A DNA stretch of 33,148 bases, from the NCBI GenBank assembly GCA_024280895.1, contig JAJRPI010000011.1, forward strand, positions 1-33,148, read 5' to 3'. The notes under the pieces are model-generated. The model was given only the letters and a program-made list of their open reading frames with translations. It was not told where the DNA came from and did no database searches. Source of the DNA: Alphaproteobacteria bacterium. GTDB lineage: Bacteria > Pseudomonadota > Alphaproteobacteria > Rhizobiales > JAKIUO01. Shown piece after piece: positions 1-30,877 of this stretch (positions are counted from its first letter, which is position 1; the number at the start of each line of letters is the position of its first letter). Made by a program: the position numbers and the translations under genes.

Positions 1-1700
<1,700 letters not shown>

Positions 1701-8676: not shown

Positions 8677-8898
8677 GGGTCAACTCTTCGGGTTTTCCAT
8701 CAAAATGCCAACAGCCCCCTTGTGCGGCCACTAATACAAAGCAGAGGATTTATCACCAAGCGCCATGACCGGCGGTTCTCAAATAGAGGTTTTGAAATGT
8801 CGAAAACAAGATAGAAAAGCGCTTTCCATATCAATAAATGCGTTTAACATCCCAACTCTAAACAGCTATGTAAATTTTTTCATTTTCCAGGAGCTTTC

Positions 8899-9468
8899 AT
8901 GCCTGACGATTTTAAAGCATATTGGCGTAAAGCCTTTCCAGATTGCGATCCTGCTGGCTATATGCTGCGCGAACAACTGCCCGAGCAATGGTGGCGCTTT
9001 CATTCCTTGCCGCTCTCAAAACGTTATCCTGACAATGAAAACGAGATGAAGATCGTGCTCCATCGAGCCAATGCTGTCGCCTCTGATATATTAGGAAACG
9101 GAGCCGATTGCTGGGTTGTTTCCAGCCTGTTTCATAAACCTGAAGAACCATTTCAAACCAAATGGGAGCAAAATGTCCGGCACCCTCTCGATTTGCAACG
9201 CGCTTTTAAATGGCAAGCCTATGACGATGAGCAAGTCTTTCATGCCTATGCCGGGTCATGCTGCTGGCGACCAACAAAACAAGATGATCTTTTGTCTCAA
9301 CTTGCCGACGATAAGTTCCGGGACATTCTTTGGATATCCAAAAAAACCGGTGCCATCTTTGCGCCCTATGCCGGAGGCGTCGATATTTTCATGCCCCGCA
9401 ATGAAAGCGCTCAAGACTATAAGAAAAAATACAAGATGTGGCTTTCAGAGCACCCCGGCGGGGTGTGA
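8899..9468 (+). CDS. DUF3885-like cytoplasmic protein
   Basis: This is a 189-residue soluble protein. The region WWRFHSLPLSKRYPDNENE followed by a variable aromatic-rich half resembles DUF3885 proteins, which are often found with immunity or toxin-related genes in other bacteria; the match is from memory of the motif. AGGAG lies 7 bases before the ATG, a good start. Two adjacent cysteines (SCCWRP) and many Trp/Tyr residues are visible, but no catalytic motif. The next gene starts 75 bases downstream on the same strand. Confidence 0.7.
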   Translation: MPDDFKAYWRKAFPDCDPAGYMLREQLPEQWWRFHSLPLSKRYPDNENEMKIVLHRANAVASDILGNGADCWVVSSLFHKPEEPFQTKWEQNVRHPLDLQRAFKWQAYDDEQVFHAYAGSCCWRPTKQDDLLSQLADDKFRDILWISKKTGAIFAPYAGGVDIFMPRNESAQDYKKKYKMWLSEHPGGV

Positions 9469-9543
9469 TTTTACAAAAAACCTTTTTGTGATCGCCATCA
9501 CTTTTATCCTCATTGTTTGTGGCAGTATCAATCAGCAAGCGCG

Positions 9544-10290
9544 ATGAGCGCTGCACAACAGCACGCATCAAAAATTGTAGCAAGGGTCAATGAAATGCCG
9601 CGCCTTCTTTCACTATTAGAATTCCTGCAAACGGGGTCGCTAGGACCTGTAAATCTCCAATGCACTTCCTTGGAGATTGCAAAACATCTTGGTCGCCTGT
9701 TGGACTCAGATGAAGACGAACTTCTATACTGGCTATATGGAGAACACCTGAAGATACTGTTCCATGCTGCCCCTTTGGAGCAGATGGAGTTTTTCAAGAT
9801 TGACTATGCCGCTCAACTGTCGGGCGATCGTTTCGCAATTGGGCCGCAGTTTGACGTTTCCCTCGATGGATTTCGTGGCGATATGACGGCCTCCGATTTC
9901 CTGCGCTGGCTGCTTGATGCTGGCATTGAGTGCCATATTGAATATGAGATCTATAAATATGACACGGATCGTATCGGCCTTCTTAATTTTGAAATCTACA
10001 TAAGCGAGCACGTAAGGGTCATGTATGGCGGCACATCAGGATACGGCTTGTCTGATGTGCTAGGCAAGGCTTGCCAGGGTCGTTGCTTTCTTGACTTCAA
10101 AAACGATGATCACCATCAATTGCTCGCACAGATTGACGGTTTGCACGACATCATACGAATGACCGCCATCCCTGCTGCGCACAATGTGCCAGCAACGCCG
10201 GGCTCTATCAAGCTGGCGGCCAGGGACTATCTGGTGCTGGTTGATGAAAAATCCTGTGCAACAAATAAGCTCGCACCCCACCAAAGATAA
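9544..10290 (+). CDS. Hypothetical soluble protein, no recognised family
   Basis: From the ATG at 9544 the product has 248 residues; a TTG at 9517 would add nine. It has no signal peptide or membrane helix. The N-terminal third is helical and Leu-rich (RLLSLLEFLQ, then DEDELLYWLYGEHLKILF). The middle is a mixed acidic domain with GLSDVLGKACQGRCFLDFK. Weak ribosome signals precede either start. Its tail is convergent with the DUF2147 gene, 18 bases apart. It may be cotranscribed with the DUF3885-like gene. I can suggest no function. Confidence 0.7.
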   Translation: MSAAQQHASKIVARVNEMPRLLSLLEFLQTGSLGPVNLQCTSLEIAKHLGRLLDSDEDELLYWLYGEHLKILFHAAPLEQMEFFKIDYAAQLSGDRFAIGPQFDVSLDGFRGDMTASDFLRWLLDAGIECHIEYEIYKYDTDRIGLLNFEIYISEHVRVMYGGTSGYGLSDVLGKACQGRCFLDFKNDDHHQLLAQIDGLHDIIRMTAIPAAHNVPATPGSIKLAARDYLVLVDEKSCATNKLAPHQR

Positions 10291-10308
10291 AGAAGTGGCG
10301 AAGCCAAC

Positions 10309-10707
10309 CTATCGGCGGGTCCAGTTTTGCCCACCGCAAATAAGACCGCCCAGCACACAACCTTGCACTTGCAGGCGTTTCTTGCCGATCAGGCGCATTT
10401 TTGAAATGTACCATTGCCCAGCATCTGCATCGAGGATTTGCCCGCCGGAGTAAGAGCGGCCCTTGCGGCGCATGCTCTTGACGATGATCGTGCCAAACAT
10501 TTTGCGGTTCACGTTGCGCCCACCTCCACCAACCAGCCTGCCGCAATATCTAGTGCCGCAACGGTAAAACTTGATGTAACCCCATGAGCCGTTTTTGGCG
10601 CCGGTTTTCCAAGTGCCAAGGATATCAGCGTGGGCAATGGCGGGGATTGCAAACACCGATAATATCGTAACAATTATGATGGAGGCCTGGAGCGTCAACG
10701 TCTTCAT
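10309..10707 (-). CDS. Exported DUF2147 protein coupled to a histidine kinase
   Basis: This 132-residue precursor has a clear signal peptide ending at AIAHA-D (about residue 27). The mature part has DUF2147 marks: DILGTWKT, the cysteine pair FYRCGTRYCGRLV, GGQILDADAGQWY and the terminal GCVLGGLICGGQNWTR. Four cysteines could make two disulfides in the periplasm. The ATG overlaps the TGA of the kinase (ATGA), and AGGAAA lies just upstream inside the kinase gene, so translation is coupled. An accessory sensing role for the kinase is possible but unproven. Confidence 0.88.
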   Translation of the reverse strand: MKTLTLQASIIIVTILSVFAIPAIAHADILGTWKTGAKNGSWGYIKFYRCGTRYCGRLVGGGGRNVNRKMFGTIIVKSMRRKGRSYSGGQILDADAGQWYISKMRLIGKKRLQVQGCVLGGLICGGQNWTRR

Positions 10708-12320
10708 AGCATTTCCTTTTTTAGCGGAACCATAAGTGTAAATTTCGTGCCAGCCTCAGGACTGCTGGTGTGTTGCAACGATAGTCCTGCAGTTTCAGCC
10801 TGTTGGCGAACAATTGCAAGGCCTAAGCCGAAGCCGGATGACCCCTCACCCTTTTGCCAAGGATCGAATAATCCTTGCCCCTCAGGGTCGAGCTTGTCAA
10901 AATCGCCATGAGTGTTGTTGGCAACTTCAAACGCCACCTGCGGTCCTTCAACTCTTGCAATGAGGCTGACTGTGCCGCTCCTGGTATGCTTTATCGCATT
11001 GGAAATCAAATTCGATAAAACCCGCATCAATGCAAGAGGGTGAACCTCGATAGTCCGGTCCACCGATTTAACATTGAAACCAAGATCCTTGCCATTTGCT
11101 TCATCGCGAAACCTGCGCTGCAGTGTCTTCGTGATAAGATCGACCGAGACGGGTTCGCTAGCATTGAGCTCAAGGGCGGGCCGCTCATCATCATGCACCG
11201 GATTTGCAACAGGCGCATCGGTAGCAATATCAGGGCTTTTCCCCTCCCTCGCTTCCTCCATGTAGCTGGCAGCCAGTTGATCGAGATATTCAAACGCGGT
11301 TTTCAATTGCTCTTGTACTTCTGGTGGCTTGTTCTGGGCCAAAACCGCGATACTGGTTCGCAGGGAAGATATTGGCTGACGAATATCGTGGGATGCCGTT
11401 GCCAGGCGCATGTTTTGCAGGCGCGCAACTTCGCGCGCCGCGCTATAGCGTTTCTCCGCTTCCAGCAATTCCTTATTGATACGTGCCTGTTCCATCGCCT
11501 GATCAAGCGATTTTTGAATGACCTGTTCGCGGTCAGAACGCACAACAATAATCTGATTGAGAAATAGAAACGAGAAGGCGATGAGGCACAGGGCCATAAC
11601 CACCCTGTTGACGGTCGTGAGATGGACGTCAAACCCGAACCAGCCAAAAGAGATAAAGACGGCTGCAAAAACAGCACAAACAAGAACAAAGCCAATCAGG
11701 TAACGAATGAGCTGGTCTGGCCCTCCTTGCAGCCGCGTAAAGGTGGCAAGCGGGATAAAATGTATTATGCCTGAGGAAGCAGCCACAACGTTGAATAATA
11801 AAATGGAGGTGTCAAGCGGCAGGCTAAGACTGGTCAACCAGGGTATCCAGACCAAAACAGCTGCAACGCGCAACGGCATCTTGAAACGGGTGAAGGGGTG
11901 ATCTGGCGTAATGGAGTATGATGCAAGCGCCACGATGCACATCGTCGTGAGATAGCCAAAGACCTGCAGTTCGCGCGGCTCAAGCGCTAAACCTGACCAG
12001 ACAATGCCGGTTACATTTTGTTCAAGCAGACCGACATAAGCCAGGCCCATAGCAATGAGACCCATATAAGCGGACCAAATATACCGTTTCAGAGCGATCG
12101 ATACGCCAAGAAGCGCAAAAATCATGGTAAACAGGCAGGTATAAAACACTGCTGAACTGACTACCGTTGCATTCAAATGGCCTAGTTCTACCCTTTGCGT
12201 GGCGAACTCGATCGCAAAGGCTGGCGGGCAAAACAAACTGCTTGCGAGCAAGACCGCCATCGTCGCTGGGCCGCGGTAACTATTGAAACCTGCTTGCGAT
12301 AGTTTACCTTGAACAAACAT
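10704..12320 (-). CDS. Sensor histidine kinase with seven-helix membrane domain
   Basis: The 538 residues begin with a signal-like helix. About seven transmembrane segments follow (roughly residues 52-258) in a 7TMR-DISM-like arrangement, then a coiled coil (about 265-300) and the kinase core. The H-box is SHDIRQPISSL with phospho-acceptor His311, the N-box is NLISNAIKHT (437-446), and the lid and G2 box lie at LFDPW and GFGLGLAIV (484-504). The G1 box, usually DTGxG, is replaced by NNTHGDF, a departure from the norm. It is divergent from a LuxR-type regulator 38 bases away, its probable partner, and overlaps the DUF2147 gene by 4 bases. Confidence 0.92.
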   Translation of the reverse strand: MFVQGKLSQAGFNSYRGPATMAVLLASSLFCPPAFAIEFATQRVELGHLNATVVSSAVFYTCLFTMIFALLGVSIALKRYIWSAYMGLIAMGLAYVGLLEQNVTGIVWSGLALEPRELQVFGYLTTMCIVALASYSITPDHPFTRFKMPLRVAAVLVWIPWLTSLSLPLDTSILLFNVVAASSGIIHFIPLATFTRLQGGPDQLIRYLIGFVLVCAVFAAVFISFGWFGFDVHLTTVNRVVMALCLIAFSFLFLNQIIVVRSDREQVIQKSLDQAMEQARINKELLEAEKRYSAAREVARLQNMRLATASHDIRQPISSLRTSIAVLAQNKPPEVQEQLKTAFEYLDQLAASYMEEAREGKSPDIATDAPVANPVHDDERPALELNASEPVSVDLITKTLQRRFRDEANGKDLGFNVKSVDRTIEVHPLALMRVLSNLISNAIKHTRSGTVSLIARVEGPQVAFEVANNTHGDFDKLDPEGQGLFDPWQKGEGSSGFGLGLAIVRQQAETAGLSLQHTSSPEAGTKFTLMVPLKKEML

Positions 12321-25287: not shown

Positions 25288-26142
25288 ATGAAAGTATTCG
25301 CACTCAAAACAGGGCGCTATGCCCTCACTCTGGCCTTACTGGGCCTCGCGTTTCCATCTAATGTCGTTGCTGGCGGACTTGATAAGGGTGTCAAAGTCGA
25401 CAAGCATGGCGGAGCAGATGGGCGCCTGCTCACTCCCGATTCCAAATCTTCAACAAAACAAACACGCCCTACTCCCAAAGCTGAAGGTCGCCGCATGCGT
25501 CCCTCATTTGATCGCCCCGGCTCGAATATGCGAGAAGCGCGGGAGGCACAAGAGGCACGAGAGGCACGGGAAGCACGAGAGGCACGGGAAGCACGAGAGG
25601 CACGGGAAGCACGGGAAGCACAAGAGGCACGGGAAGCACAAGAGGCACGGGAAGCACAAGAGGCACGGGAAGCACAAGAGGCACGAGAAGAAGACGGCTT
25701 CGATAGCCAGAGCTCATCCCAGTCCTATCCTAAAAGCGATGCCATCCGCGACACGCCAACAACCTCTGCCAAAACCTATACAAAAGCTTTGGGTGCTATG
25801 ATTGAGGCCAATAACAAAAAAGGCCGTCGGCAAGGGCATATAAAACTCTATGCAAAACGCCGAAACTGGGGACCGGGCGTCAAAATTCAGGCTTGTTTTG
25901 GTGACAATGTTCTGACCAAATTTACGATTGCTGACAAAGGGGCCAGTCGCACCTTGCGATTCCAGTATCAAAGGGTCACAGGCAAAACGAGCCCTAGCAA
26001 GCGGAACAAATGGGTCGCGGCCACGCCTGGCAAGCTTATCAAAGGGCGGTATATATATCTTCGAGCCCGATCTGAGCGGGAAAGTGATATTATCACGTTG
26101 CGCGTTGTGGGCATATGTATCGATAGTTCAACGATTAGATAG
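25288..26142 (+). CDS. Exported protein with a long Arg/Gln-Glu-Ala repeat helix
   Basis: The 284-residue precursor has a signal peptide (YALTLALLGLAFPSNVVAGG). A disordered basic stretch is followed, from residue 82 to 135, by 17 copies of Arg-Glu-Ala or Gln-Glu-Ala plus a final Arg-Glu-Glu. This would form a single charged alpha-helix or coiled rod of roughly 54 residues. The C-terminal 110 residues (KLYAKRRNWGPGVKIQACFG, then YIYLRARSERESD) look like a beta-sandwich with two cysteines. I recognise no family. The rod between a variable linker and a compact domain suggests a spacer that holds the domain away from the membrane or wall. The next gene, 42 bases on, may be cotranscribed. Confidence 0.75.
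   Translation: MKVFALKTGRYALTLALLGLAFPSNVVAGGLDKGVKVDKHGGADGRLLTPDSKSSTKQTRPTPKAEGRRMRPSFDRPGSNMREAREAQEAREAREAREAREAREAREAREAQEAREAQEAREAQEAREAQEAREEDGFDSQSSSQSYPKSDAIRDTPTTSAKTYTKALGAMIEANNKKGRRQGHIKLYAKRRNWGPGVKIQACFGDNVLTKFTIADKGASRTLRFQYQRVTGKTSPSKRNKWVAATPGKLIKGRYIYLRARSERESDIITLRVVGICIDSSTIR
25531..25692 (+). repeat. 9/18-bp coding tandem repeat
   Basis: Eighteen 9-base units encode xEA triplets (the last Arg-Glu-Glu). They group into 18-base units: three of CGAGAGGCACGGGAAGCA, then four of CAAGAGGCACGGGAAGCA. Near-identity at DNA level shows recent duplication; copy number is expected to vary between strains without frameshift. The two versions and their grouping show the block grew in at least two expansion events. 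Confidence 0.95.
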
Positions 26143-26659: not shown

Positions 26660-29173
26660 CTATCTCTTCCCGTATACACAAACATTACCCTTTCTGGGGG
26701 GGAATGATAGTTTTGCCTTGGCTGTCACAACAATATCGGAAATAAATCTGCGATTCCCTTTGAGGTCCAATGGCCCGGTTGAATCGCCACTTCCCAATCG
26801 ACCTCGATAAGACAGAACCTGCGAGGAGCGGTTACCGAAGGTGACCTTGGCCTCATAGATCGAAAGCCTTGCCTTGCCAGCCTTCAGCATCAAACTGCTG
26901 AACCGGCCCTTGCTGCGACCAACCGTGAAGCGTTCTCTATCCTTCTTGAAGGCAATCCTGGCACATCCAATTGGCACCCATTCACTCTCTTGCACGGGAC
27001 GATTATCAATCCGGTCCAGGCAATTGCGTAACTGGTTTCTGTGCCTGACGATAAAGCGATCAGCAACTCGCAACCCGTTCCGGCGGCACCAGCGATGATG
27101 CCGGTTGGCCTCGCCATGCCAATTTGTGCCAATGAAACCGCATGAGTTACGTCTTGAGCGACGGAACTGGGTGACAGCTCGATCCGCATAATCGCGGCAA
27201 TTTGCCAAATTGGCACCTGGACCAATCGGAGGAGCAATTGGGCGCGGGGCGGGCCGCCGGTCCCTTGCAACTTGATCATCAATGGACCGCGACGAGGTGG
27301 CCCAATAGCTACCAAACGGCATGGCGATCACACCCAGCACTTCATTGGTATGGTTGGTTTCACGATCTCTGCTTTGCTCTTCTTGCAAGCGCAACTCGAC
27401 ACGGCGTGATGTCAATCTACGATAGCGTATATCAAAGGTGTCAGCCCCATTTGAAGACTGAGCCCTTGCAAACAAAGCGGGGTTTCCACCAAAACGATTG
27501 GGGAAGGCAATCTTGCGCCACTTGTCATTAGTCCGCGAGACGCGTCCACTCCAGACGTTAACATCGCTGGCACGACCGCCATCGAGACGAAGACGACCTT
27601 GCGACATCGCCACATATCCAACCACTTCGCGGGCATGCCCACGGCGGTCACTTTCCTGCTCGCTCAAGGTAATCTCGAACCCGCGGCGAGAAACATTTTT
27701 GATCCGGGCATTCACAGGATCGCTCCCCTTGAAAGTCTGGGTCTGAGCAAGCACCACGGGAGCATTGCGCCATCTGTTGAACAAGCGGACCGATGACCAG
27801 TCACGATCAACCATGTCGGCGCTCGTGGAAATAGCCCCTGCCTCAATGATGGTTCCGTCAAAATTGTGAATTCCTTTTTCGATCACCATATAAGAAAGGC
27901 TTTCACGGACATGTGCCCCGTCTTTGCCAAATTCCTCAATGCGGAATTCAAAACCACGCGGCGAAACTCTGCGCACGCGTGCATGTGCCGGGTCACTGCC
28001 ATTAAAGGAAACGGGCCCCATGATCACAACGGGATCTCTGAATCTCTTCGAGAACCTTACACTATGCCATTGACGGGCATTTCTCTGGCGCACCTCAACC
28101 GATCCGGTTTCCATGACTTTGGGCTGCGAACCGCGACGAATACAACGGTTTATGTACCTCTTGCGCAATTGTGTTTTGGCGCGCATTTGACGACCATTTA
28201 GAGTACGGCATGCTTTATAATGCGTTTTGAAATCTCGCGCCCAGGTCGAACCACTCGTCCGACATCTGTTCTTTCTAGCTTGACCAACCTGTTCGAGCGC
28301 ATCTTCTGCATAGATTTCACAGCGCTCCGAACGTGCACCACCACCGCGCCTGATACAAGATGCGAGCTTGGCTTGCGCCCGTTCAAGAACATCACGGCGT
28401 TTCGATCTGCCATTATCAAGGCACCACTGATAAACCCGCTCATGCTCTTTGTCCCACTCACGATTGGGCGTCCGACAATTATTGGCATTGGCCTGCTCAA
28501 GAACATCCATTGCGGTGCTCGCATAACGATCACATTTACGGTCCCTGCGCACGCGGCGATTATCACGACACTCACTAAGCTGATCATCGCGTGCTTGCGT
28601 TTCGCGTACCGAAGCCCGTCTTGAGCTATTCATGCACCAGCGATAATGATTGCGATAATTTCCCTGCCATCTAGTCCCACGCAGGCGGCAGCGCTGGGTC
28701 AGGTTTTTATCTTGTTGATCCAGAGCAGATTCCGCGTAGTTGGCACAGCGTTCGGCCTTGTTAGGGCGGGTGCGTTGCACAACCCGTTTAACGCCCGATG
28801 TGCAACATTCATTGGCATGCTTTGGACCAACGCTATGTTTGAGACGGCATTGAGGAGGAATGATTTCTCTTTTTCCACCAAAACCGATATTGAGATCAGG
28901 ACCAAGATTAAAGCTGATACCTTCTTTTTTCTTTGTCCGCTGCTTGATAAAGGTCCAGGCCTTGCAGCTCGCATCATCTTTACAGGCGCGCCGGCAAACT
29001 CTGAAGTCATCTCCGACCCGCAAGGTCAAAAATTGATAGTCTCCACCAATTCTCAGGCTATCTACTTCTTCAGCTATCGCATTGCCAACTGGCGCGAATG
29101 TAATAGCGATCAAAGTAAAGAGCGCAATGAACGCTCCCTTGGAAAATTGGTAGGTCTTTCGAAACGGCTGCAT
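26660..29173 (-). CDS. Large exported multidomain protein: PAN-like, cysteine repeats, lectin-like repeats, DUF2541-like
   Basis: The ATG at 29173 has GAGGAG upstream and gives 837 residues; the longer frame to 29365 crosses a terminator. A signal peptide ends near AIAEE (35). A PAN/apple-like domain follows with Cys60, 64, 70, 109, 123, 124. Then come three copies of a cysteine repeat with invariant spacing C-x18-C-x17-C-x21-C (143-202, 214-273, 285-344). Three H-type-lectin-like repeats (about 355-440, 445-535, 540-625) each have W-x2-[VI]-x-F, a P-V/A-[LV] strand and an E-x2-[GS]-[YV]-[VMI] end. A fourth cysteine repeat is at 659-718. The C-terminus (731-837) resembles DUF2541, a periplasmic beta domain. 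It is probably surface or periplasmic and binds glycans. It is a paralogue of the gene upstream, from which a terminator separates it. Confidence 0.85.
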   Translation of the reverse strand: MQPFRKTYQFSKGAFIALFTLIAITFAPVGNAIAEEVDSLRIGGDYQFLTLRVGDDFRVCRRACKDDASCKAWTFIKQRTKKKEGISFNLGPDLNIGFGGKREIIPPQCRLKHSVGPKHANECCTSGVKRVVQRTRPNKAERCANYAESALDQQDKNLTQRCRLRGTRWQGNYRNHYRWCMNSSRRASVRETQARDDQLSECRDNRRVRRDRKCDRYASTAMDVLEQANANNCRTPNREWDKEHERVYQWCLDNGRSKRRDVLERAQAKLASCIRRGGGARSERCEIYAEDALEQVGQARKNRCRTSGSTWARDFKTHYKACRTLNGRQMRAKTQLRKRYINRCIRRGSQPKVMETGSVEVRQRNARQWHSVRFSKRFRDPVVIMGPVSFNGSDPAHARVRRVSPRGFEFRIEEFGKDGAHVRESLSYMVIEKGIHNFDGTIIEAGAISTSADMVDRDWSSVRLFNRWRNAPVVLAQTQTFKGSDPVNARIKNVSRRGFEITLSEQESDRRGHAREVVGYVAMSQGRLRLDGGRASDVNVWSGRVSRTNDKWRKIAFPNRFGGNPALFARAQSSNGADTFDIRYRRLTSRRVELRLQEEQSRDRETNHTNEVLGVIAMPFGSYWATSSRSIDDQVARDRRPAPRPIAPPIGPGANLANCRDYADRAVTQFRRSRRNSCGFIGTNWHGEANRHHRWCRRNGLRVADRFIVRHRNQLRNCLDRIDNRPVQESEWVPIGCARIAFKKDRERFTVGRSKGRFSSLMLKAGKARLSIYEAKVTFGNRSSQVLSYRGRLGSGDSTGPLDLKGNRRFISDIVVTAKAKLSFPPRKGNVCVYGKR

Positions 29174-29363
29174 GCGGAGCTCCTCATTGAAACGCCATGG
29201 TATAATTGGCGCATTCTTCTTGGTGTCGAGTGCAAAACGGACCCGACTATTAGCATTTTTGTAACGATAGTATGCCAGCAGTTTGGTCAAATTAAAACAG
29301 GGTACGGCATTTTTTTTGAGCATTGTGGTTTTAAAGTGCTCGAAAATGCGGTTTTCACAGACC

Positions 29364-29401
29364 AAAAAAATACCGCACTCACCAAGTAGTGCGGTATTTT
29401 T
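29364..29401. terminator. Perfect 13-bp stem terminator between the two paralogues
   Basis: AAAATACCGCACT (29367-29379) and AGTGCGGTATTTT (29388-29400) pair perfectly, flanked by A- and T-runs, so it works on both strands. It lies 27 bases after the upstream paralogue's stop and ends that transcript before the larger gene. Confidence 0.92.
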
Positions 29402-29428
29402 AGAAAATCCATTCGCTCTTTCATTGAT

Positions 29429-30877
29429 CTAACGCGGGCGACCAAACGGCAATTTAAAACCAAATTTACAGGTCGAAAGCAGCGCCTTGCGCTCTAGCAT
29501 TTTGCGAGAACGCCGTCCCCTCGATGCCTTGGCACACCATTTATAGTGACCAATATAGCTATCATGCCAGTATTTGCCGCGATAATTGCAGCTGCGTGCA
29601 ACATTCTTCTCAAATTGGCGAAGCGAGCGCACCGCATAGGTATCGCAGGCTTCATTGAAGGGACCACCGCCACGCTCGAAACATTTCGAAAGTTCCGCTT
29701 CGCGATATTTCAGCTCGCCATCACGATTGACTTTTGACGTTTTGGCGCACCAGGACAAATGGCGATCATAATTAGCCAGCCAGCGCCGTCCCTTGAGGCC
29801 ACAGTTCTGTTTGCGATTGGAGCGCGTTTGCTCACTTGCCAGACGGGCATAGTGATCGCAGGCGACTTTGCCTTCGCCGCCGCCGCCGCCTTGCGCGACA
29901 CATCGCTCCAACGTGTCGGCCCGCACTTGCGTTTCGTTGCGGATATCCCAGGGATCAACCTTTAAGCACCATTGGTAATGAGCACGATAGCCATCATGCC
30001 AGCGGCTACCAGAAAAACCACACTCATTGCTGCGCGCCTTGCCATATTGTTTGACCGCTCGCTGCGCATAATTATCGCAGCGCTTCACAAAGGGCCCGCC
30101 CCCTCGGCGCAGGCAAGAAGACAAAGCAGCGCGCGCATCACTCAAAACATCCTCGTTGGCATCATCCTTGTTGCGGCGACACCAGCTATAGGCTGCATCA
30201 AAGCCGCCAAGCCATTTAGTGGGCGTTAACTGGCAATTATTACGCCCCGCCGAATCGGCAATATCTTCGGCTGTCTGAGCAAAAAGCTGACATTCGCGAT
30301 TAGTGCGGCGTCTGTTTTTCTCACAGCGCTGCAACGCGCTCTTGCGCCCCCCCCTCAGCGCGTTTCGCTGTTTGGGGCTCAAGGTCAGGCAACCACGGAA
30401 ATGTTTTTTATAGCGCTCGCTCCAGTTATCGCCACGATAACCACATTTGCGCGCCAGGTTTTCATCTTGCTGATCGACGGCCTGACTGGCAAAATCAGCA
30501 CAAATTTCCCGGCGGGTTTTCTTTTTGGAGACCTTTTTCACCCCCGATACACAGCATTTACTGGGGCGAGCCGGCGCAACGAAGCGCTTCAGACGGCATT
30601 GGCGACTTGGCTTGATATAGGTCCAGGATTTACATCTGGCATCGATGCGGCAGCTCTCTTCACACCAGCGATAACCCGATCCCGCCGGTACTCTAAGATA
30701 ATTATAGTCACCGCCAATACGGATCTGGTTGGCTTTCGCCGCCAGCGCTTGTGGAGCATATGAAAAACCCGAAATAGCCGCGAACAATATGGCCAAGGCG
30801 GGGACTACTAATTGCCAGCTCACGAAAAAACGAGAGCCGTTGAAAGCACATTCTGGAAGACGAGGAGCCTGGCGCAT
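29429..30877 (-). CDS. Exported PAN-domain protein with five invariant-spacing cysteine repeats
   Basis: This 482-residue precursor has a long N-terminus with an export helix (LVVPALAILFAAISGFSYAP) ending near ALAAKA (48). The PAN/apple-like domain has Cys72, 76, 82, 94, 108, 109, with RIGGDYNYLRV before and RCKSWTYIKPSRQCRLK inside. Five tandem repeats start at Cys126, 196, 267, 340 and 411. Each has cysteines at exactly +19, +37 and +59, an invariant Trp 7 residues after the second Cys, C-x2-[FY]-A at the start, and mostly H/A-x3-W/G-C before the third Cys; GGG linkers join most copies. Four even cysteines per repeat suggest two disulfides each in an oxidising compartment. The smaller paralogue lacks the lectin-like and DUF2541 parts. 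The function is unknown; AAGG precedes the ATG. Confidence 0.87.
   Translation of the reverse strand: MRQAPRLPECAFNGSRFFVSWQLVVPALAILFAAISGFSYAPQALAAKANQIRIGGDYNYLRVPAGSGYRWCEESCRIDARCKSWTYIKPSRQCRLKRFVAPARPSKCCVSGVKKVSKKKTRREICADFASQAVDQQDENLARKCGYRGDNWSERYKKHFRGCLTLSPKQRNALRGGRKSALQRCEKNRRRTNRECQLFAQTAEDIADSAGRNNCQLTPTKWLGGFDAAYSWCRRNKDDANEDVLSDARAALSSCLRRGGGPFVKRCDNYAQRAVKQYGKARSNECGFSGSRWHDGYRAHYQWCLKVDPWDIRNETQVRADTLERCVAQGGGGGEGKVACDHYARLASEQTRSNRKQNCGLKGRRWLANYDRHLSWCAKTSKVNRDGELKYREAELSKCFERGGGPFNEACDTYAVRSLRQFEKNVARSCNYRGKYWHDSYIGHYKWCAKASRGRRSRKMLERKALLSTCKFGFKLPFGRPR

Follow-up and report, generated by a model that had tools for sequence, protein, structure and literature searches.

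The described domains closest to the repeat reported here are the PAN/apple domains (PF14295 PAN_4 and PF00024 PAN_1), which contain disulfides; the GLG1 cysteine-rich repeat (PF00839), an exported, repeated, cysteine-rich unit of about 60 residues; the H-type lectin domain (PF09458), which binds N-acetylgalactosamine (GalNAc) or galactose and of which we take discoidin II and SLL-2 to be members; and carbohydrate-binding modules (CBMs), such as those of AlgX and CBM32. The window analysed here (the whole of a 33,148-nucleotide stretch, contig JAJRPI010000011.1 of assembly GCA_024280895.1, from an alphaproteobacterium of the order Rhizobiales) carries two genes on its reverse strand, A (26660..29365, a frame of 901 amino acids (aa)) and B (29429..30877, 482 aa), whose products contain nine copies of a cysteine repeat of the form C-x18-C-x17-C-x21-C. 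Like PAN/apple domains, this module is exported and cysteine-rich, and such a domain lies directly N-terminal to the arrays of A and B, but it occupies a stretch distinct from the repeat, over which no PAN match was obtained. It differs from the GLG1 repeat in cysteine spacing, and PF00839 gave no match in a Pfam scan of 37 copies. The likeness to H-type lectins concerns three units of A (unit 2 in the fold of a low-confidence model, and weakly in sequence), which sit beside the module rather than forming it and score below the Pfam cut-off in A. CBMs resemble the C-terminal domain of A in modelled fold and the module in the accessory, non-catalytic role that we propose for it, but they are beta-sandwiches, whereas the module is predicted to consist of three helices. 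We consider it reasonably probable that the repeat represents an undescribed family of exported, disulfide-bonded helical modules, which in this window belong to proteins that probably recognise glycans at the surface. Computation gives good support for the copies being exported domains, with three predicted helices and probable disulfide bonds.

The cysteine repeat and known families

All nine copies (four in A, five in B) match the C-x18-C-x17-C-x21-C pattern exactly, where 0.0006 and 0.004 exact matches, respectively, would be expected from the cysteine content, and a six-frame scan of the window found no others. Every copy opens with C-x2-[YF]-A and has a tryptophan seven residues past the second cysteine, as the initial annotation had reported. 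C1, A5, C20, W27, C38 and C60 are common to the nine, whose pairwise identity is 18–40%. The linkers between adjacent copies are 10–13 residues long; the GGG that had been described for them was read in four of the six and is missing from the remaining two. Within the source genome, A and B account for every copy detected by the profile (nine) and for the two PAN_4 matches.

We compared 255 distinct full-length copies (those spanning about model positions 2–56) from 116 protein frames, near relatives included. The fixed spacing claimed for the repeat is borne out within the window and fails as a family trait, as the exact 18-17-21 triple is kept in 180 of the 255, a share that is biased upward because the profile was seeded with canonical copies and the DNA pattern used to find distant copies demands 17 residues between C2 and C3. 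The C1–C2 spacing is 18 in 247 of the 255; the C2–C3 and C3–C4 spacings differ by a few residues.

The suggestion that no named family has this spacing stands. Over the repeat in A and B, nothing credible was found in Pfam, a negative to be read knowing that HMMER filters drop weak matches, and none of the Pfam scans gave a confident match; NCBIfam and PDB-sequence searches returned only scattered weak matches, and searches of PHROGs with whole A and B as queries likewise gave nothing credible. When 37 diverse copies were scanned singly, 14 Pfam and 6 NCBIfam families appeared, each in one copy, with no PAN match among the families listed. A description of the repeat was not found in the titles and abstract openings of open-access literature. 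Descent from a named cysteine-rich repeat such as GLG1, too distant for profiles to detect, would explain the similar length and the cysteine-rich, repeated, exported character, but no Pfam family occurred in more than one of the 37 copies at E <= 0.5 and a Foldseek search of the PDB with the module model yielded nothing at E <= 0.001 (best E 5.7), and we consider such a relationship very improbable. The best VIA match to the module had Z 5.0 (60 residues, root-mean-square deviation (rmsd) 2.4), which is ordinary for helical models. The absence of a PDB match does not prove that the predicted fold is new.

Predicted fold and cysteine pairing

AlphaFold2 was run on the tandem pair B3–B4 with an alignment of 91 of the 92 listed tandem pairs (the last was omitted), giving a predicted local distance difference test score (pLDDT) of 91.3 and a predicted template modelling score (pTM) of 0.64, with helices at residues 2–17, 31–40, 43–63, 68–90, 104–112 and 116–131. 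The module is confidently predicted to be a three-helix fold, in agreement with the compact domain of about 60 residues that had been proposed. Each copy would comprise helices at about 2–17, 31–40 and 43–63, locked by two disulfides that most likely join Cys1 to Cys3 and Cys2 to Cys4; judging by conservation and covariation, Tyr4, Trp27, Trp37 and Leu57 probably form the core, and Arg26 and Glu49 probably a salt bridge.

That the domain is disulfide-bonded, as initially suggested, and that the pairs are C1–C3 and C2–C4, is favoured though not proven by co-loss of cysteines and by covariation. Four full-length copies lack C2, and all four also lack C4, while C3 is kept in all four and C1 in three; on their sequences, these copies may be natural single-disulfide or disulfide-free variants. 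They lie in L075 1690–4899 (-), L109 1–2292 (+) and L062 5733–7049 (-), L numbers denoting loci of other genomes. A partial copy in L075 (5035–5379) also lacks C2 and C4 and is outside this count, and an apparent exception to the co-loss in L071 ('CxCC') was dismissed, being a one-residue shift of C2 (spacing 19).

Across 258 copies, C20–C60 (z 6.3) and R26–E49 (z 6.2) are the top long-range covarying pairs, followed by C1–C20 (4.75) and C1–C38 (4.47), and Y4–W37 also covaries. In a set of 183 copies, filtered to below 62% identity, nine non-cysteine pairs picked from this analysis (R26–E49, Y4–W37, Q12–S29 and Q11–R53 among them) exceeded all 1000 shuffles, a comparison weakened in that the shuffles do not keep the relatedness of the copies. 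Most of these nine pairs would run helix 2 antiparallel, and helix 3 parallel, to helix 1, an arrangement that would place C1 beside C3 and is compatible with C2 beside C4. Several further observations count against the proposed pairing. Three of the four co-loss copies come from one genome (L075/L109), so that there were fewer than four independent events, and one of the four also lacks C1. All six pairs of cysteine columns couple (z 3.9–6.3, values inflated by gaps at the ends), and C1–C20 ranks above C1–C38, leaving the proposed pairs in first and third place. As all six couple, partly through the end gaps, C2–C4 is favoured more clearly than C1–C3.

Distribution, export and possible function

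Judged by profile searches, the repeat is a genuine domain family. A profile of the nine copies matched 24 of 61 genomes (the source genome and 60 relatives), including all five of the genus, with some of the matches outside the genus weak. A 37-copy profile found the module in at least 51 of 297 genomes of the order (the source genome included; 32 of 118 genera), in at least 3 of 289 in a class sample (the source genome and two weak, partial matches) and in at least 5 of 397 in a phylum sample (including the source genome, with one match outside the order), all of these being lower bounds since the best 16–22 candidates per genome were scored. A 57-base DNA pattern for the C2–C3 part, with no matches in 100 shuffles of the window, hit 52 stretches in named species genomes, and the profile finds the module in all 52. 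By record title, 33 of these are alphaproteobacterial, a class placement that we presume to be correct. The other 19 are mostly from other Proteobacteria and Desulfobacterota (among them Dethiosulfatarculus sandiegensis, Desulfarculaceae, Syntrophobacterales, Desulfohalobiaceae, Thiohalobacter, Chromatiaceae, Lysobacterales and Sulfurovum), together with metagenome-assembled genomes titled Nitrospirae, Thermoanaerobaculia and Pirellula, titles that may reflect mis-binning. Sixteen genomes without an alphaproteobacterial title carry 1–10 copies each at E <= 0.01. The initial annotation had anticipated many alphaproteobacterial homologues, and these were found, in a family that extends past that class. 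B had no match among phages or plasmids, three further family proteins had none among plasmids, and the 57-base pattern did not occur in the viral contigs searched, so nothing indicates that the family is mobile.

In a tree of 80 copies, built on an alignment of only 60 columns that leaves most forks unresolved, A2 and B2 group together (99/95, with a long branch) and B4-like copies of several families cluster with weak support (81/81), as if the array positions were old. A single group contains all five Dethiosulfatarculus copies (99/99) and another contains four of the five Thiohalobacter copies (99/90); both look like within-protein expansions. The Dethiosulfatarculus sandiegensis protein (L037 530–2332 (-)) has five similar modules after a 270-residue N-terminal region, for which there was no credible Pfam match.

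Among family frames of 250 aa or more, 58 of 72 have a hydrophobic segment after a basic start within their first 70 residues, compared with 141 of 526 other frames of that length (open frames rather than curated genes); the figure for family frames of all lengths is 85 of 107. This enrichment, with the signal peptides of A and B themselves, upholds the earlier claim that both proteins are exported. Eleven frames of 97–113 aa consist, by eye, of a signal peptide, one module and a few residues, leaving some 60–75 residues past the signal peptide.

These one-module proteins bear on what the module does. It could be a passive, ligand-free spacer or stalk, in which stacked, disulfide-locked helices hold PAN, lectin-like and CBM-like domains at a distance. 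The 2–8 copies in 64 of 116 proteins, the short linkers in the window and the near-fixed length with a diverged surface would suit such a role, which we nevertheless consider unlikely: 52 of the 116 frames have a single copy (some being truncated at contig ends), where a spacer on its own would hardly be useful; some proteins are only a signal peptide and a module; and repeat types may be kept by position between families, as the weakly supported B4-like cluster hints. Small, exported, cysteine-rich one-domain proteins are also what would be expected if the module inhibited a periplasmic or secreted enzyme (e.g. a lysozyme or protease), singly in small proteins and multivalently in arrays. The repeat matched no known inhibitor family in the Pfam and NCBIfam scans of the 37 copies, though, and the single fusions to a subtilase and an M48 peptidase are equally expected of a targeting domain, making inhibition a distinctly improbable role. 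We instead infer, from the one-domain proteins and the partner domains, that the modules bind something outside the cell.

Partner domains were counted with Pfam (E <= 0.001) in 111 of the 116 frames, omitting L075:5889 and L127:10566 (respectively, the gene also present as L109 and a fragment of a split gene), the weakly matching L025 and L026, and L075:5035. PAN_4 occurs in 33 of the 111 proteins and PAN_1 in 10. Pfam found 30 families in all; in the 25 that were listed, Kre9_KNH has two occurrences and each other non-PAN family has one, among them Tectonin, subtilase (S8), FG-GAP, YARHG, WSC, Exo_endo_phos, M48, FecR, PASTA, crystallin, CARDB and ankyrin. Although a PAN-like domain had been said always to precede the repeat, and does so in both window proteins, PAN_4 is present in the minority of family proteins just given and in L054 (residues 216–267) comes after the modules (69–199). 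With PAN also following the modules and with such varied partners, the module moves between architectures, and PAN is a common rather than an obligatory companion. The earlier interpretation is in these respects supported in part: the lack of a named family, the homologues, the compact predicted fold, the export and a plausible recognition context hold, whereas the constant PAN domain and the family-wide spacing do not.

The module would be autonomous, occurring alone after a signal peptide, in strings of up to eight, or joined to extracellular domains or hydrolases, and might serve both as an accessory binding unit and as part of rigid, protease-resistant arrays. A broader proposal, which we put forward tentatively, is that it represents a so far unrecognised kind of domain that binds outside the cell, with three helices and two disulfides in a fold of its own, present in many Proteobacteria and Desulfobacterota and used in the manner of CBMs or PAN domains: as a lone secreted mini-protein, as a multivalent array, or attached to peptidases, nucleases and lectin-like proteins as a tag that directs them to their targets. 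Two results weigh against our preferred interpretation of the family. Only PAN_4 and PAN_1 recur widely as partners, and a gene context widely shared by 25 small module genes was not found; the largest shared group of neighbours, presumably helicase-like, was present at 3 of 25 loci, and the others at 2. In two related genomes, the neighbourhood of a module gene includes a protein that looks exported (L151 3419–3859 (-), L156 2667–3107 (-)) and whose repeats we take to be curlin-like. Extracellular modules are a vocabulary of bacterial adhesion and recognition, and if this one is recognised, a large number of so far uncharacterised proteins secreted by Hyphomicrobiales and sulfate reducers could be grouped into a single family. 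Given the small size of the one-module proteins, their structure and binding can be studied quickly, which makes the question of a ligand directly testable.

Genes A and B and their surroundings

In B, a PAN domain is followed by five modules. In A, the PAN domain leads into modules A1–A3, then three units resembling H-type lectins, module A4 and a terminal domain like a CBM. All parts are on the reverse strand, and the modules were placed by motif scan and profile. The frame of A opens by the open-reading-frame caller at a TTG at 29365. Met65 at 29173 is the likelier start on sequence grounds, since the signal peptide (by eye) begins there, ending near residue 98 (approximately 29072..29173, read from sequence: MQPFRKTYQFSKGAFIALFTLIAITFAPVGNAIA); the orthologue frames in L077 and L126 open just ahead of A's signal peptide. 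The PAN_4 domain (28925..29047) exceeds the Pfam cut-off, with 28.4 bits in hmmscan (gathering score 27) and 32.3 in the genome search. Modules A1 (28568..28747, residues 207–266), A2 (28355..28534, 278–337) and A3 (28142..28321, 349–408) follow, and A4 (27020..27199, 723–782) lies beyond the lectin-like block. B begins with a signal peptide (approximately 30740..30877, read from sequence) and a PAN_4 domain (30587..30715) that is over the cut-off in the genome search (27.9 bits) and below it in hmmscan (21.1), followed by modules B1 (30323..30502, residues 126–185), B2 (30113..30292, 196–255), B3 (29900..30079, 267–326), B4 (29681..29860, 340–399) and B5 (29468..29647, 411–470).

The block between A3 and A4 (residues 423–692) is made of three internal repeats. 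Units 1 (27845..28099) and 3 (27290..27541) were delimited by internal repeat alignment and alone have no Pfam match; unit 2 (27569..27820) is supported by a below-cut-off H_lectin match and by model alignment. In a low-confidence model of A 410–901, the second part of discoidin II (Z 9.3, 88 residues, rmsd 2.9) can be aligned to residues 93–182 (A 502–591), which belong mainly to unit 2, and so can SLL-2 (Z 8.9, 82 residues, rmsd 2.5). Foldseek with A 410–901 ranked discoidin II 22nd (E 0.019); its sole match at E <= 0.001, a phage baseplate chain, was discarded as meaningless (template modelling score under 0.1). The C-terminal beta-rich, CBM-like domain (26663..26989; DUF2541 below cut-off) aligns in this low-confidence model with a part of AlgX (Z 10.1, 100 residues, rmsd 2.6) that we take to be carbohydrate-binding. 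The lectin-like assignment is weakened by the low confidence of the model (pLDDT 58.7), by H_lectin (PF09458) scores of 17.9 bits in A and 23.6 in the orthologue L083 against a cut-off of 24, and by H_lectin not being listed for L077 and L126, two of the four A orthologues scanned. The search for the H_lectin family gave no match in the source genome or in the controls and is uninformative, and a profile of the lectin-like units matched no PDB sequence.

In the A orthologue of L126 (2040–4886 (-)), a Tectonin domain (1.1e-58) stands in place of the C-terminal beta-rich domain; a changing C-terminal domain on a constant body of PAN, module and lectin-like parts fits a recognition protein. With its PAN, lectin-like and CBM-like domains, A makes the surface-recognition context suggested in the initial annotation plausible, and A and B are most likely at the cell surface or released, where they may bind glycans or matrix. 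In each of the four other genomes of the genus that were read, B and A keep their order and strand and DUF937 is found beyond B; in L126 and L127, the two whose sequence extends that far, LepA is found beyond A. In L127 (about 8821–11480 (+)), the A orthologue is split into two frames near residue 621–631, through either an assembly error or a real break.

Elsewhere in the window, the frame at 3–1700 (+), which continues past the left edge, encodes a WD40 beta-propeller protein. The product of 25288–26142 (+) begins, by eye, with a signal-like stretch and contains an extended series of Glu-Ala-Arg-Glu-Ala-type units; its homologues (34–80% identity, two of them cut by contig ends) occupy the same place in all four other genomes of the genus.

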